Assembly: GCF_045679555.1 (NCBI RefSeq)
Contig: NC_092091.1
Location: 69,888,517 to 69,952,516, forward strand
Source: Salvelinus alpinus
Lineage: Eukaryota; Chordata; Actinopteri; Salmoniformes; Salmonidae
DNA: 64,000 nucleotides
Direction of reading: 5' to 3'
In this document: positions 45,207-64,000 of the stretch, in pieces
Numbering within the stretch: the first letter of the stretch is position 1
Layout: each line of letters begins with the position of its first letter
Notes under the pieces: model-generated
What the model saw: only the letters and a program-made list of their open reading frames with translations
What the model was told of the DNA's origin: nothing
Databases searched by the model: none
Position numbers and translations under genes: made by a program

Positions 45207-45351
45207 AAAGCAATAAGGCACGAGGCAGTATCATGAATACAGTCACAGACAAATGGGTTGACTGGCCGATGCTGTCGCATCGTGGCCAACTAACGCCGTT
45301 TACCTGTGACTGTATTCATGATACACCACTTCCTCTTGTGCCTTATGGCTT
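45207..45351. repeat. imperfect palindrome downstream of cyp2u1 stop
   Basis: The left arm (AATAAGGCACGAGG, GTATCATGAATACAGTCACA) is complementary to the right arm. A second nested stem (GGCCGATG/CATCGTGGCC) lies at the centre. Confidence 0.8.
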
Positions 45352-45388: not shown

Positions 45389-45570
45389 TCACCGCCGGGG
45401 CCTCACAGTCACAGTGTATGAGCAGGGGGCCAGGGTGAGGCCAAAGCGCCCGTGCATGGGAGGAGGGGCCAGCCCCTCGGGCAGTCTGAAACTGAAGGCC
45501 TGCAGCAGGCTGGTGAACATCAGGAACAGCTCCATCTTAGCCAGCTGCTCGCCCATACACACCCTGCGTC
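45389..45570 (-). CDS. cyp2u1: cyp2u1 exon 5 (terminal)
   Basis: 182 nt continuing the haem loop ([19 protein letters not shown]), ending TVTVRPRR-stop (TGA, 45389-45391). Confidence 0.95.
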
Positions 45571-48500
45571 CTGGGAAAGAGAGGGAGAGAACACTGTAAA
45601 GATGCACATTAAGTCATGGTCATACTAAGTGCATTCCAACAATAATAATAATAATCCAGTAAGACTGTGAAATCAAATGATTGAAATGTTCAGTCGTGGC
45701 CTAACTGCTTCATACTTATGTAGGGGTAGTATGGGACTTCAACAATCCAGTGAGATTGTAAACTAACCTTTTGAACCTTGTTTCAGTGGATTTTACAGGA
45801 GCCTAACTGTAAATGTCCACAGTAGAAAGGCTTCATTCTCAGTGTATACCGTGTGACTACACTCCCGTTTGCCAGTCGTAGAGCAAGTCGCTAATGGGAC
45901 CCCCACATACGTCTGTCGAGAGAGACTGCCTTACGACCTACCTATTCCGAACGGTATGAAGCACTCTTTCCTCAGGAGATTCCCCTGGTCGTCTAGGAAA
46001 CGAGAGGGGTTGAAGTCGTCTGGCTCCTCCCACATAGTGGGATCCCTATGGACAGACCACAGGTTGGGGATGATCACTGTGCCCTTAGGGATTGTATAGC
46101 CACGGAACTCTGCAAGACAACAACAGACGAACCATAGCGAAAGGGTTGTACTTTCCTGTTTCTGCTGCAGCAGCCTAGTCCCTGTTGTAGTGTTGGTCTG
46201 GTGGAACTGACTGACCAAGTTGTTGAGAAAGCAATTCAATACAACTTTATTGATCTGACTGTGCATAACGGAAGAGTCAGGTTCTACCATAGAATTAGAA
46301 TGACTAGTATGGGTTTCTCTCTCCTCACCTGTGGTCTCTGAGGCCATGTGAGGGATAGCCAGGGGGACCACCACAGTCATCCTCTGCACCTCCATGATGG
46401 TGGCCTCCGTGAACGGCAGGCTGCCTTTATCAGTGAGAGACGGGACCCTGTCTGGGCCCACCACTGCATCGATCTCCGCCTGCACCCTCTCTGTGGTGTG
46501 AACGGGTACAAATGACATGGAAAACATTATTACAAAGCAACGAGCATTGGGAAACAGGACACTGGATATGTTACACATAGCATTATGATTGGGTACTGTA
46601 CTACATCATGCTACAACAAGGAGTTCTCTTTCGGTTACATTGAACTGGTCCTCTACACCCCTCTTCCTGATGTAGTACCTTGGATATCTGGATACACGAC
46701 CATGTAGAGCATCATCCACAGCACTGTGTTGGTGGTGGTATCAGTACCAGCGATGAAGAGGTCTCCTATGATGTAGAATAGGTAGTCCTCTGAGAAGCTA
46801 CTGTCCGTCTCCCCAGCGGCCTCCTGGGCCAGCATCTCTACCAGATACATGTCTATGAGATCTCTGGGGTTGGCTGGGTCTAACGTCTCCCTATGTCTGG
46901 TGATGATCTGCTTCAGGAAGGCAGTGATGTCCCTTTCCACTTGCCGTACCTCTCTGAAGACACCGAAGGGCAGGTAGTAGAGTAGGGGGAAGACATTGAT
47001 GAGGACCGCCGCGCTGTTAGAATAGAATAGAGTAGAATAGATACGTTACTGCCTGTTTTCTGGGAGAAACTGAAATGTGTTAAGCGCTTAAGGGCACACA
47101 GCAGGAAATTCTACTTGAGATCAGAGACCAGCAGTTACCAGTTCAGTTCCCACGTCTTTGAACCAGTCAACCTTCCAGCTACTGATCCACATCTCTAACC
47201 TCTAGGCTACCTGTTGGCGATGATCTCTAGGCCGCGGGCCATCAGGTCCAGCAGGGCGCCAAACTCCCGGTCAGCGTGGTGGAAGCGCTGGCCCAGGGCG
47301 ATGTAGGAGATTACGTTGGACACAGAGTTAGTTATCAGAGGGGTCAGGTCCACTCCTGAACCCTCAGTATCTTCCTCGCCGAGACGCAGAAGCTCAGATT
47401 TGACCACAGCCAGCCCCTCAAGGATACAGGGCTCCAGGCTCAACTTGCCCAGGCCAAAGTTCCGCAGCGTGGTGTGGCAGAACTTGCGCTGCCTTCTCCA
47501 TACTGGTCCATAAGGTGCAAAAACTATGCCTAAGGTTCAGAGAAATGATAAGAGGCGAGGACAGTTAATAGTGCTGTCACTATGCACTAGTACACATATG
47601 TAATTATTTACAGAGCAAAATTACATTTCTCTTTCCTTTTCTGCTTGGAAGACTTTTGATGAGAATAATATAATATAACAATAGAACAGACCAATATAAT
47701 ATAACAATAGAATATAATCATAGAATAGAACAGACCAAAATAATAGAACAATAGAATATAACAGACCAATAGAATAGAACAATATAACAGAACAATATAA
47801 CAATAGAATAGAACATACCAATAGAATAGAACAATAGAATAGAACAGACCAATAGAAGATAACAGACCGATATAATAGAACAATAGAATAGAGCAATAGA
47901 ATAGAACAATAGAATATACCAATAGAATAGAGCAATAGAAGAGAACAGACCAATATAATAGACCAATAGAAGAGAACAAACCGATAGAACAGAACAATAG
48001 AATGGAGCAATAGAATAGAGCAATAGAATAGAGCAATAGAATAGAACAATAGAATAGAACAATAGAATATAGCAATATACTAGAACAATATAATAGAACA
48101 ATAGAATAGAACAATAGAATAGAGCAATAGAATATAGCAATATAATAGAACAATAGAATAGAGCAATAGAAAAGAACAATACAATAGAGCAATAGAAGAG
48201 AACAGACCGATAGAATAGAATAATAGAATAGAACAACAGAATAGAGCAATAGAATAGACCAATAGAATAGAACAATATAATAGAGCAATAGAATAGAGCA
48301 ATAGAATAGAACAATAGAAGAGAACAGACCAATAGAATAGAACAATATAATAGAACAATATAATAGAACAATAGAATAGAGCAATAGAATATAGCAATAG
48401 AATAGAACAATAGAATAGAACAATAGAATAGAGCAATAGAATATAGCAATATAATAGAACAATAGAATAGAGCAATAGAAAAGAACAATACAATAGAGCA

Positions 48501-51500
48501 ATAGAAGAGAACAGACCGATATAATAGAATAATAGAATAGAACAACAGAATAGAGCAATAGAATATAGCAATATAATAGAACAATAGCATAGAGCAATAG
48601 AATAGAGCAATATAATAGAACAATAGAATAAACCAATAGAATAGAACAATACAATAGAGCAATAGAATAGAGCAATAGAATAGACCAATAGAATAGAGCA
48701 ATAGAATAGACCAATAGAATAGAGCAATAGAATAGAGCAATAGAATAGACCAATAGAATAGAAGAATACAATAGAGCAATAGAAGAGAACAGACCAATAG
48801 AATAGAATAATAGAATAGAACAATATAATAGAGCAATAGAATATAGCAATATAATAGAACAGACCAATAGAATATAGCAATATAATAGAACAGAGCAATA
48901 GAATATAGCAATATAATAGAACAGAGCAATAGAATATAGCAATATAATAGAACAGACCAATAGAATATAGCAATATAATAGAACAGAGCAATAGAATATA
49001 GCAATATAATAGAACAGACCAATAGAATAGAGCAATAGAATAGAGCAATAGAATAGACCAATAGAATAGACCAATAGAATAGACCAATAGAATAGAGCAA
49101 TATAATAGACCAATAGAATAGAAGAATACAATAGAGCAATAGAAGAGAACAGACCAATAGAATAGAATAATAGAATAGAACAATATAATAGAGCAATAAA
49201 ATATAGCAATATAATAGAACAATAGAATAGAGCAATAGAATAGACCAATAGAATAGTGCAATAGAATAGACCAATAGAATAGACCAATAGAATAGACCAA
49301 TAGAATAGACCAATAGAATAGAGCAATAGAATAGACCAATAGAATAGAGCAATAGAAGAGAACAGACCAATATAAAAGACCAATAGAATAGAGCAATAGA
49401 AGAGAACAGGCCAAAAGAATAGACCAATAGAATAGACCAATAGACGAGAACAGACCGATGTAAGAGAATAGAATAGAGGAAGAGAATAGAGCAATAGAAG
49501 AGAACAGGCCAAAAGAATAGACCAATATAATAGAGCAATATAATAGAACAATAGATAATAGAGCAATAGAAGAGAACAGGCCAAAAGAATATACCAATAT
49601 AATAGAGCAATAGAATAGAGCAATAGAATAGAACCGGCCAATAGAATAGAGCAATAGAATAGAGCAATAGAATAGAACAATAGAATAGAACAATAGAATA
49701 GAGCAATAGAATAGAACCGGCCAATAGAATAGACCAATAGAATAGAACAATAGAATAGAGCAATAGAATAGAACAGTAGAATAGAGCAATAGAATAGAAC
49801 CGGCCAATAGAATAGACCAATAGAATAGAGCAATAGAATAGAGCAATAGAATAGAACAATAGAATAGAACAATAGAATAGAGCACAAGAATAGAGCAATA
49901 GAATAGAACAATATAATAGAACAATAGAATAGAGCAATAGAATAGAACAATAGAATAGACCAATAGAATAGAACAATAGAATAGAACAATAGAATAGAAC
50001 AATAGAATAGACCAATAGAATAGACCAATAGAATAGACCAATAGAATAGAACAATAGAATAGAGCAATAGAATAGAACAATAGAATAGAGCAATAGAATA
50101 GAACAATATAATAGAGCAACAGAATAGAACAATATAATAGAGCAACAGAATAGAGCAATAGAATAGAACAATATAATAGAGCAATAGAATAGAGCAATAG
50201 AATAGAGCAATATAATAGAGCAATAGAATAGAACAATATAATAGACCAATAGAATAGAACAATATAATAGAACAATATAATAGAACAATAGAATAGACCA
50301 ATATAATATAACAATAGAATAGAACAATAGAATAGAACAATAGAATAGACCAATAGAATAGAGCAATAGAATAGAGCAATAGAATAGAACAATAGAATAT
50401 AGCAATATAATAGAACAATAGAATAGAACAATAGAATAGAATAGAACAATAGAATAGAGCAATAGAATAGAGCAATAGAATAGGACAATAGAATAGAATA
50501 GACCAATAGAATAGAACAATAGAATAGACCAATAGAATAGAGCAATATAATAGAACAGACCAATAGAATAGAGCAATAGAAGAGAACAGACCGATATAAT
50601 AGAACAATAGAAGAGAACAGACCAATAGAATAGAACAATATAATAGAACAGACCAATAGAATAGAACAGACCAATAGAATAGAGCAATAGAAGAGAACAG
50701 ACCGATATAATAGAACAATAGAATATAACACTAGAATGGAACAGAACAATAGAATAACAGAACAATCTAATATAACATACCAATCGAATAGAACAATTGA
50801 ATACAATAATATAATAGAACAATAGAATAATATAACAATAGAATAGAGACAAAGGAGAGGAGGGCTTCTTTGGTTTATAGTTCATCCATGAGGTGCTCTT
50901 TGATCATGGGATGAAATACTATAAAACAAAAAGAAGTTGATGCTGGATAGTAAACAATGTCAGAACAGCCTTTGTTCAAACAAACTTCCAATCAAGGCAC
51001 TCTCATGTAGTGGAATCTTTTTAAAGTATTTATGTTTTACGGCTTATGCGTGGCAAGATTCTTTTTTTTTAAACAGACGTGTTGTGGCTACAGCCTTCAT
51101 CAAGGTGACAAATAATAGTGGTGAACAAACAGGTGTATTGTCACGTTCCTGACCTGTTTTCTCTTGTTTTGTATGTCTTTATTGGTCAGGGCGTGAGTGT
51201 TGGGTGGGCAGTCTATGTTTTCTATTTCTATGTTGGGTTTTGTGTTCGGCCTGGTATGATTCTCAATTAGAGACAGGTGTGTATCGTTTGTCTCTGATTG
51301 AGAGTCATACTAAGGCAGCCAGGGTTTCACTGGTGTTTTGTGGGTGTTTGTTTCCTGTGTTAGCGTTTGGGCCACACAGGACTGTTGCAGGTTAGTAACG
51401 TTTGTTGTTTTGTTAATTTGTTAGTGTTTGTTGGTTTGTCATTAAAATCATGAATACCTCCTACTCCGCATTTTGGTCCGATCCTCCTCGTCTGAGGAGG

Positions 51501-54500: not shown

Positions 54501-55827
54501 TCAGAGTGTTTGGGCTGCCTATGTGGTGTACAGGCTGCCCAGGTGGGTGCTTTTACATAGGACGTACTAAGAGAAGGCTCAAGGACAGGGTGTCTGAACA
54601 TGCCTATGCTATAAGGACTGCTAACGACAAGTATCCTTTGGCTAAACATTACAGACAGATTGGCCATGCCAGCCCAAACTCTCTTAAAGTCATGGCCATT
54701 GAAGTGGTTCCCATTTCTCGCAGGTGGGGGCGATCGTCTCAAACACCTCCTAAAATGCGAAACGCTCTGGATTTTTAAACTAAAGGCCACTGTATTGCCA
54801 GGTCTAAATGAGGAAATGGATTATTCTCCTTTCCTGTAAAAGATGGGGTTTATTTTTTGGTTCTCCATTCTTAAGTTTGATAACATGAGCTCATGTGTAC
54901 ACAGTTCGTTTTTTACTTTTATGATATTGCATTTCTTTCTCTTGTTATGCCATGTTTATTTTGTTCATCTTTGTATCTTGAATGTGTTTTTTACTTTATC
55001 AATTACATATGGCAATAAAGTGAGTCACTTCCTGTGAGAGTTGGGATATACACCTGTGTGTACACCACTATTCTTTGTCACCCTGATGAAGGCTGATATA
55101 GCCGCAACACGTCGGTGTAAGCCACAACGAAGGCGTTTACATTTTTCTGTTACATGAGAGTGCCTTGATTACTCGTTTGCACAAAGGCTTTTCTGGTATT
55201 GTTTACTATCCAGCATCAACTTATTTTTGTTTTATAGAACAATAGAATATTCACCGGGCAAAACGCTCATCCAAGACCGCTCATACGATGAGTAAAATCG
55301 ACCTCAGCAAAAATCTATTGACTATTGTGCTTTCATGCGTTATTACGCACAGGTTGAGTCTAGAAGCAGCACTTACCTTTCCGCTTTGTCATGATGGTAA
55401 CGGTGGGAATCTCTGGTCTGTCGGAGAACACATCTGCCCGGTTTGAGAGGGCATCCCTGACCACTTCATATCCGTTCAGTACTACTACCAGCTGACTCCC
55501 TACCCACATGCTGTAGATGTTACCGTAAACTTTAGCTTGTTCCGTGATAATAACTTGAGGTGAAATTAGAGCTCGTGTCTTTGACTTTGGAACGTCCTTC
55601 CCTCCCCAGCCTCCAAACCTCTTCCAGATGAAATTGGGAACCAGAAACCCGCCAAAATTTCCAACTATTGGCCATGGTTTAGGACCAGGAGGAATATTGG
55701 AGAAATCCTGGTGTTTGCGAAATGTGTGCATTAGATAATAGACGGCCACGAATACTGTCAAGGCCAGAATGCAGACATGGGACAGCGCAGAAGTGCCCAG
55801 GAGCTCGTGCCATAATTCCATAACCAT
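45389..55827 (-). CDS. cyp2u1: cyp2u1, cytochrome P450 2U1, complete
   Basis: Membrane-anchored haem-thiolate monooxygenase of ER/mitochondria; the family hydroxylates long-chain fatty acids such as arachidonate. Six coding exons (- strand): 55377-55827, 47211-47529, 46679-47013, 46329-46490, 45942-46109, 45389-45570. They total 1617 nt, 538 aa (human 544). Residues ~18-35 form the N-terminal membrane anchor, followed by the hinge [12 protein letters not shown]. The I-helix reads AGTDTTTN, the K-helix ExxR is EVQR, the meander is [10 protein letters not shown] and the haem loop is FGIGRRVCMG with its Cys ligand. The first ATG (55827) was chosen; a second in-frame ATG is at 55821. The mammalian gene has five exons: here exon 2 is split by a 197-bp SINE-like intron (47014-47210). 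Intron 1 is ~7.8 kb of satellite and nested retroelements. Confidence 0.96.
45942..46109 (-). CDS. cyp2u1: cyp2u1 exon 4
   Basis: 168 nt encoding [20 protein letters not shown] through [10 protein letters not shown] to CFIPFGI, the start of the haem loop. Donor is ATAG|GTAGGT. Confidence 0.95.
46329..46490 (-). CDS. cyp2u1: cyp2u1 exon 3
   Basis: 162 nt encoding [20 protein letters not shown] through [21 protein letters not shown]. It includes the invariant ExxR (EVQR). The Met after EVQR is Leu in human, as I recall it, and in the inverted pseudogene copy at 56989-57376. Confidence 0.95.
46679..47013 (-). CDS. cyp2u1: cyp2u1 exon 2b (3' half of ancestral exon 2)
   Basis: 335 nt with acceptor CTATTCTAACAG|C. 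The frame reads [18 protein letters not shown] through the I-helix [12 protein letters not shown], ending at VYPDIQ. Donor is CAAG|GTACTA. The junction with 2a restores the vertebrate protein length exactly (N-S). Confidence 0.94.
47014..47210 (-). mobile_element. tRNA-derived SINE forming an intron of cyp2u1
   Basis: On the gene strand the intron begins GTAGCCTAGAGGTTAGAG, continues with CAGTAGCTGGAAGGTTGACT and later has GTGTGCCCTTAAGCGCTTAA. The same ordered blocks occur in the SINEs at 57640-57805 and 59600-59760 (- strand), so the element lies in sense orientation. The 3' end is a T-rich (TATTC)n tail. Exonic AACAG precedes it and AACAG ends it, consistent with a target-site duplication or a head-derived donor. 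Confidence 0.75.
47211..47529 (-). CDS. cyp2u1: cyp2u1 exon 2a (5' half of ancestral exon 2)
   Basis: 319 nt. It begins [17 protein letters not shown] with the helix-C WxxxR motif and ends GLEIIAN plus AG. The donor is AACAG|GTAGCC. The bases after the exon match the head of tRNA-derived SINEs elsewhere in this window. Confidence 0.93.
47661..50849. repeat. 3.2-kb 13-bp satellite in cyp2u1 intron 1
   Basis: Units of CAATAGAATAGAA / CAATAGAATAGAG / CAATATAATAGAA with local higher-order duplications. The - strand is free of stop codons in all three frames for more than 900 codons, a consequence of a 13-bp unit lacking stops in any frame. Confidence 0.96.
51139..51524 (+). repeat. 5' LTR
   Basis: 386 bp, TG...CA ends. 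Contains ATTAAAATCATGAATACC near its end, a plausible polyadenylation region. Confidence 0.92.
51976..53709 (+). CDS. long Pro-rich repetitive ORF of the LTR element
   Basis: Open frame of 578 codons from the first ATG (the frame is open from 51787). After a ~130-residue Pro/Arg-rich head the protein is built of successive tandem peptide arrays: 9-aa VCPAPSEPS, 9-aa PASQELPET, 6-aa SSHELP and 7-aa LLPLIPE. All repeat periods are multiples of three. No known enzymatic domain; no retroviral gag, pol or env similarity recognised. Whether it is translated is unknown. A separate upstream frame (to 51778) reads [18 protein letters not shown] and may be a gag-like remnant. Confidence 0.5.
   Translation: MKPAQRIWPPVRLLGPAYMAPALQVVSPVRLHSPVRAIPPRRTGRATGTIQPGKVGEARCSRARVLLHGPAYPAPPSRPSPVPPVPTPRTRLPVHLQSPVPPPRTRPEVRALSPVPPVPAPRIRPIVRLSRPESAVCPAVPELPVCPAVPELPGCPTPSEPSVCPAPSEPSVCPAPSEPSVCPAPSEPSVCPAPSEPSVCPTPSEPSVCPTPSEPSVCPTPSEPSVCPTPSEPSVCPMPSEPSVCPAPSEPPVCPEPLEPPVCPEPLEPSVCPEPLEPSVSQEPLEPSVSQEPPEPPASQEPPETPASQEPPETPASQELPEMPASQELPETPASQELPETPASQELPETPDSHELPYGHELPYSHELPSSQELPSIQELPSSHELPSSHELPSSHELPSSHELPSSHELPSSHELPSSHELPSSHELPSSHELPLSHELPSSHELPLSPELPLSPELPLSPELPLLIPELLPLIPELLPLIPELLPLIPELLPLIPELLPLIPELLPLIPVLALIPMLPLHLGGLSWRVVIGRGIRKRGVTMVGWGPHPEPEPPPWSDAHPDPPLDFVLVRPEFAP
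53721..54112 (+). repeat. 3' LTR
   Basis: 392 bp. It differs from the 5' LTR at GTTCTGCC/GTTCGGCC, one missing T, TCTTGG/TTTTGG and a small insertion ATGCTCCTC-like. Confidence 0.92.
55377..55827 (-). CDS. cyp2u1: cyp2u1 exon 1
   Basis: 451 nt encoding the signal anchor, the Pro-rich hinge and the A to C helix region, ending [15 protein letters not shown] plus one base. Donor is AAAG|GTAAGT. A longer frame would need a TTG start at 55854. Confidence 0.94.

Positions 55828-56764: not shown

Positions 56765-64000
<7,236 letters not shown>

Follow-up and report, generated by a model that had tools for sequence, protein, structure and literature searches.

A probable case of intron birth by SINE insertion in the coding region of salmonid cyp2u1

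The origin of new vertebrate introns is a long-standing question, and the sequence from which such an intron arose is usually not recognisable. Gains of introns in vertebrates are moreover reported as rare in the available part of PMC2746811. The cyp2u1 gene of Salvelinus alpinus, which lies in the window (i.e., the whole 64,000-nucleotide stretch of DNA analysed here), bears on this question: a source element is legible at both ends of an intron inside a coding exon, donor, pyrimidine tract and acceptor can each be assigned to a source, and it is known how the exon looks in many other vertebrates. A sequence-only reading of the locus had proposed that this intron was born by insertion of a SINE, and the question is whether gene structure, homologues and the intron's own sequence bear this out.

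The gene is encoded on the minus strand and comprises six coding exons, namely exon 1 (55377..55827), exon 2 (47211..47529), exon 3 (46679..47013), exon 4 (46329..46490), exon 5 (45942..46109) and exon 6 with the stop codon (45389..45570). Exons 1 and 4 to 6 follow from the GT-AG gene model, and exons 2 and 3 were in addition identified, by comparison with homologues, as the first and second half of a single ancestral exon 2. The spliced product matches the S. alpinus NCBI protein P0001 (538 aa) in all 538 residues, and within the junction ranges tried there was only one set of GT-AG junctions that reproduced this protein exactly. That set includes the proposed intron between the two halves (47014..47210, minus strand), which is 197 bp long, is in phase 2 and interrupts codon 257 (Ser). 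As the sequence-only reading had stated, its removal yields the junction LEIIANSAAVL with no residue gained or lost, whereas an unspliced reading of 47210-47014 meets a stop two codons after the start of the junction codon (IIANR*PRG*).

To establish the ancestral state of the exon, the 218 residues of ancestral exon 2 were used as the query of a homology search, from which 120 of 124 matches, ranging in length from 130 to 381 aa, were listed. Many of these are unlabelled open reading frames (ORFs) on short contigs, whose source designation, 'lgn', presumably stands for Logan assemblies built from public reads; the species behind such unlabelled records are inferred. We classed the homologues by the sequence found past the exon edges, which was either CYP2U1-like or unrelated read-through. 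Among the matches listed, exon 2 was continuous across the intron site in 114 of 120. Unrelated read-through at both edges, the mark of genomic-type records, was seen in 38 of the 120, a class that includes a CYP2J-like gene model (P0240) and a turtle gene model (P0178), and all 38 were continuous. Read-through at the 3′ side only characterized 63 records, 60 of them continuous (the exceptions being P0219, P0234 and the coelacanth model P0223), and of 15 transcript-like entries 13 were continuous (exceptions, the mouse isoform P0228 and P0237, which starts downstream). Four entries remained, three continuous and one, P0236, not. The nearest named proteins of these matches come from fishes including anchovy, catfish, carp and percomorphs; ORFs at a greater distance, with 56-62% identity, probably come from tetrapods, and the named tetrapod records are from turtle, bird, snake and mouse. 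Exon 2 is likewise unsplit in the carp-nearest genomic-type ORFs P0154 and P0155. For zebrafish, the available part of PMC3012610 gives six exons for CYP2U1 in Ensembl 58, as against the five that the sequence-only reading had put forward for vertebrate CYP2U1. The earlier proposal that exon 2 was ancestrally uninterrupted is thus borne out by 114 of the 120 listed homologues and by every genomic-type one, and the intron appears to have been gained on the lineage to salmonids, after its split from the sampled teleost lineages.

What, then, is the intron made of? A search of the 2.37-Gb genome matched its sequence to 13 further places, with a best E value of 1.1e-14. The aligned copies belong to a single family, in which a tRNA-like head is followed by a family-specific body and by a tail that ends in AATAAAGT plus ATTCT-type repeats. 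A profile built from eight other copies, with the intron itself excluded, matched the intron with 95.6 bits and an E value of 1.3e-28 (nhmmer), a head-body score that is partly circular in that the copies had been fetched by similarity to the intron, whereas the genome E values and the tail are free of this circularity. The match spans intron bases 1 to 149 and model positions 1 to 175, with internal gaps, and so assigns 47062..47210 to the SINE head and body, starting exactly at the first base of the intron. For the 3′ end, the intron tail TAACGTATCTATTCTACTCTATTCTA (47023..47048), which is also the pyrimidine tract, aligned to the tail of copy L005 with a score of 30, as compared to a maximum of 28 in 2000 shuffles. 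Compared with 3948 random genomic slices, the tails of four of six copies (L003, L005, L008 and L015) scored within the top 0.1%, and those of L012 and L013 did not match the intron tail (0.34 and 0.056, respectively, in this comparison). This tail match is not circular, because none of the six tested copies had been found through its tail. Thirteen nucleotides, which separate this match from that of the profile, are unaligned. The K2P distance between the intron and the family consensus is 0.105 over 144 aligned bases. Judged by these alignments, a single SINE copy makes up the intron over its whole length.

The sequence-only reading was right about a SINE origin and wrong about the family, which it had equated with that of two elements elsewhere in the window. 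These elements, at 57640-57805 and 59600-59760, share mainly the tRNA-like head with the intron, of which the alignment covers the first ~52 nt and no more. They score 36 bits against the profile, as compared to 95.6 bits for the intron, and their tails differ; the intron body (GGAACTGAACTGG, CTGCTGGTCTCTGATC, TCCTGC) and the tail belong to another tRNA-headed SINE family. Even so, similarity of the head to the two window elements exceeds chance, its score being reached by none of 5000 dinucleotide shuffles and by none of 636 window slices (a set that leaves out the surroundings of the two SINEs and of the intron), and together with the profile E value this places the intron's similarity to a SINE far above chance, whereas the sequence-only reading had named a failure to exceed chance as grounds for refutation. 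Within the head, TAGCCTAGAGG fits the A-box consensus, and the B box is degenerate. Neither Rfam nor ARAGORN made a tRNA call on the SINE head, and its predicted folding gave a z score of -1.40, with 17 of 200 shuffles folding as well. Fourteen random 10-kb regions contained no further copy of the SINE, the one match at E ≤ 0.01 being 17 nt within the T-rich tail. Salmonid SINE families named in a table in the available part of PMC3747384 are HpaI, SlmI, SmaI and FokI.

The 5′ splice site coincides with the start of the element. The donor CAG|GTAGCC (47205..47213) takes its intronic part from the SINE head, and AACAG occurs both at the end of the upstream exon (47211..47215) and at the 3′ splice site (47014..47018), exactly as the sequence-only reading had described. 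GTAGCC starts 9 of the 12 other copies listed, with L007, L008 and L015 differing by one base. The flanking repeat is exact over the 5 nt of AACAG and 6/10 identical over ten nucleotides, and its two copies can be read as the upstream and downstream parts of a target-site duplication. The bases that precede GTAGCC in other copies are CAG in L002, L005 and L011 and GCA in L003 and L004. Because some copies carry CAG at this place, the SINE's own start may include these three bases, in which case part of AACAG|GT would be SINE-derived and the duplication shorter. By a splice-site matrix, the donor GTAGCC is weak, scoring 0.72 as compared to 8.63 for the consensus. A CTTAAC motif in the SINE body, picked out by eye, is a plausible branch point.

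From these elements a route from SINE to intron can be proposed. In an ancestor of the salmonids, a tRNA-headed SINE would have entered ancestral exon 2 of cyp2u1 in the sense orientation and become a spliceosomal intron, either at once or after small changes, and we consider it very probable that this is what happened. In this scheme the donor CAG|GTAGCC would come from the first bases of the SINE and the polypyrimidine tract from its tail, which is rich in pyrimidines and of ATTCT type. The acceptor would be AACAG from the exon itself, which flanks the element on either side in a short duplication of the target site. Cutting at both AG ends would then restore the exon in frame, without gain or loss of a residue. 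A model in which transposon insertion with target duplication gives rise to a precise intron is described in the available part of PMC3443670 (section 7). Since a stop follows at once in the unspliced reading, splicing would have been needed early, the alternative being a loss-of-function allele; the salmonid genome duplication could have buffered such an early loss of function.

Both ends of the intron recur in unlabelled ORFs of other salmonids. P0219, a genomic-type ORF of 154 aa with 25 member sequences and ~98% identity to the char exon, begins inside the same intron tail as the read-through of the window. P0241, a genomic-type ORF ~92% identical to the char exon, runs into the SINE head, reading LEIIANRYPRG where the window has LEIIANR*PRG*, with one codon changed. 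P0219 and P0234 are probably salmonid, as they are 98% identical to char. P0241 and the spliced full-length P0010 have the residues SEQDTEG and YVALG in common, which suggests that the unspliced and the spliced form probably stem from one species or genus, perhaps Salmo.

Evidence that the segment is spliced comes from protein records on transcript-sized contigs. The full spliced protein is encoded on the contigs of P0008 (1818 nt) and P0010 (2333 nt), which cannot be unspliced genomic DNA because intron 1 alone measures 7847 bp, although a processed gene copy would equally record past splicing. The 1234-nt contig of P0129 also spans the junction, and the junction peptide LEIIANSAAVL is present in all 11 full-length salmonid proteins (P0001-P0011) as well as in P0017 and P0129. 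In the partial Coregonus model P0012, 19 residues are replaced by a single D, such that HHADRD is joined to AAVLINVF. On the window sequence, only one of the 14 GT dinucleotides of the first half of ancestral exon 2 gives this join, together with the acceptor of the gained intron. Coregonus is placed in Coregoninae and Salvelinus in Salmoninae; as the Coregonus model, an automatic one, uses the same acceptor, the gain probably predates the split of the two subfamilies and would be an old event rather than a recent one.

Other histories have to be weighed against a SINE insertion in the salmonid ancestor. That the segment is an artefact of annotation or assembly, and no intron at all, could draw on the weak donor; we give this hardly any credence, given that the unspliced reading runs into a stop, that whole spliced proteins sit on transcript-sized contigs and that both intron ends are found again in other salmonid ORFs. 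An intron of the wider CYP2 family may instead have been retained here and lost from other CYP2U1 genes. The candidate is intron 4 of nine-exon CYP2 genes, whose place in CYP2D6 and CYP2C9 is in the alignment only ~10 nt downstream of the cyp2u1 intron. Yet the old intron is in phase 0 as opposed to phase 2 here, its retention would require many independent losses, since 114 of 120 homologues have an unbroken exon 2, and the cyp2u1 intron consists of SINE sequence. In agreement with the sequence-only reading, we therefore regard retention as highly improbable.

An intron that arose by another route (break repair, tandem duplication or intronization), with the SINE landing inside it later, is very improbable, albeit somewhat less so than retention. 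In its favour are the 13 unaligned nucleotides and an 8-mer, GCCTAGAG, that occurs in the exon (47225-47232) and again, 25 nt away, in the SINE head (47200-47207), which may reflect chance or microhomology at insertion. Against it, the profile match sets in with the first base of the intron, the tail continues into the repeat at the acceptor, and no sizeable stretch without SINE sequence is seen that could be left from an older intron. None of the 120 listed exon-2 matches had as its nearest protein one from pike (Esox, protein P0013), mudminnow (Umbra) or smelt (Osmerus), which leaves room for a gain that is real and older than the pike-salmonid split. Nothing speaks directly against such an earlier gain, and the K2P distance of 0.105 from the family consensus fits either date; we consider it unlikely, though with a chance well worth keeping in mind. 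Birth of a new intron by SINE insertion is thus the best explanation of the locus, as the intron was not found in other listed vertebrate homologues, is present and spliced in further salmonids, and reads as SINE from one end to the other, with a short repeat on either side.

Has the same SINE family made introns elsewhere? Copy L005 (G000:C25:3870035-3870352) exactly fills the gap between the coding pieces ...DANVTARKMQ and KVERLQEELGSSKV... of a coiled-coil gene that is presumably ccdc170-like. Here, too, intron base 1 is SINE base 1 and the donor is CAG|GTAGCC. The tail leads into AAGAAGAAG, which precedes the next coding piece, and the donor is preceded by AAGATGCAG, the two agreeing at 7/10 over ten bases. 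Depending on which acceptor is used, the gap is 315 to 321 bp long; it is matched by positions 1 to 283 of the SINE profile. The coiled-coil gene had no Pfam match above the cut-off, and a PDB search yielded no match at E ≤ 0.001. L005 is, by its sequence, a candidate for a second SINE-made intron, and the only exact exon-SINE-exon case besides cyp2u1 among the 13 other copies seen. If it holds true, this fish SINE would offer a natural test system for the conversion of a mobile element into an intron. Two further copies, L002 and L007, were rejected as SINE-made introns, being SINEs inside introns that have a GTGAGT donor of their own upstream of the SINE. The host gene of L007 is a zinc-finger gene with an ordinary intron, and that of L002 is TGF-beta receptor type I-like (Pfam GS motif, 20.3 bits, just under the cut-off of 21.3). 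At L002 (G000:C28:33450513-33450593) the SINE is represented by its head, and the acceptor side of the host intron, GACAATAAATCTCTCTTCTGGTACAG, resembles the SINE tail.

The family may thus have made introns repeatedly. In the widest form of this idea it would be a vertebrate introner, the sense insertions of which into coding exons are spliced ready-made through the CAG|GTAGCC head and the pyrimidine tail and have provided several salmonid coding introns, among them those of cyp2u1, of the C25:3870035 gene and of others. We hold this to be possible and, on balance, doubtful. Introners as described in the available part of PMC9860276 are similar in that a mobile element becomes an intron; they differ in forming families that enter many genes, whereas the old SINE family considered here accounts for one intron with good support and for one candidate.

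Precedents exist for parts of what we propose. The available text of PMC2394776 treats the intron of rice catalase A as a coding-region case of SINE origin, in which a SINE inserted into a coding region became a spliced intron as in cyp2u1; that case concerns a plant and a different SINE, whereas cyp2u1 is a vertebrate gene with an intron that appears common across a fish family. The same source (2007) states that no SINE-born intron had been described from vertebrates, and contributes four introns born from Alu elements, those of human SS18L1, PDZD7, C14orf111 and CWF19L1. These resemble the cyp2u1 case in that a vertebrate SINE insertion led to a new intron, but each of the four is an alternative intron of a 3′ untranslated region, whereas the cyp2u1 intron is coding and protein-neutral. 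Lineage-specific gains of coding introns in fishes are known from melanocortin receptor (PMC3151243) and serpin (PMC2746811) genes; according to the parts of these papers available, the serpin introns do not resemble any known complex repeat and the repeats of the melanocortin-receptor introns are only parts of larger introns, in contrast to the SINE sequence that reaches both ends of the cyp2u1 intron. In vertebrate transposon-derived genes, over 70 cases of intron gain are claimed, some of them coding, in an account that, as far as its text is available, names no SINE as the source and in which the host genes themselves are transposon-derived; mobile elements are thought responsible for the introns gained in such genes, according to the available part of a review (PMC3899998). 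PMC12124190 reports 342 recent intron gains in human genes, and the word SINE is absent from its text. None of the matches listed in a literature search reported a coding intron of SINE origin from a vertebrate, which is not proof of absence.

Several further features of the window were observed alongside. In the next cyp2u1 intron (46491-46678, 188 bp) the donor, aag|GTACTA, is unusually weak, with a score of -0.56 by the splice-site matrix. Within intron 1, positions 47660-50860 hold ~3.2 kb of a degenerate TAGAA/ATTCT-type tandem repeat with a unit that, by eye, is similar to the SINE tail; the repeat may be an expansion of the tail of another element. Just downstream of the cyp2u1 stop codon, an imperfect inverted repeat around CATGAATACAGTCACAG (45213-45347) was noted, likewise by eye. 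Finally, a tRNA-Ala (TGC) gene was called on the plus strand at 61005-61080, and a stretch near 61111-61210 resembles the two window SINEs (score 46).
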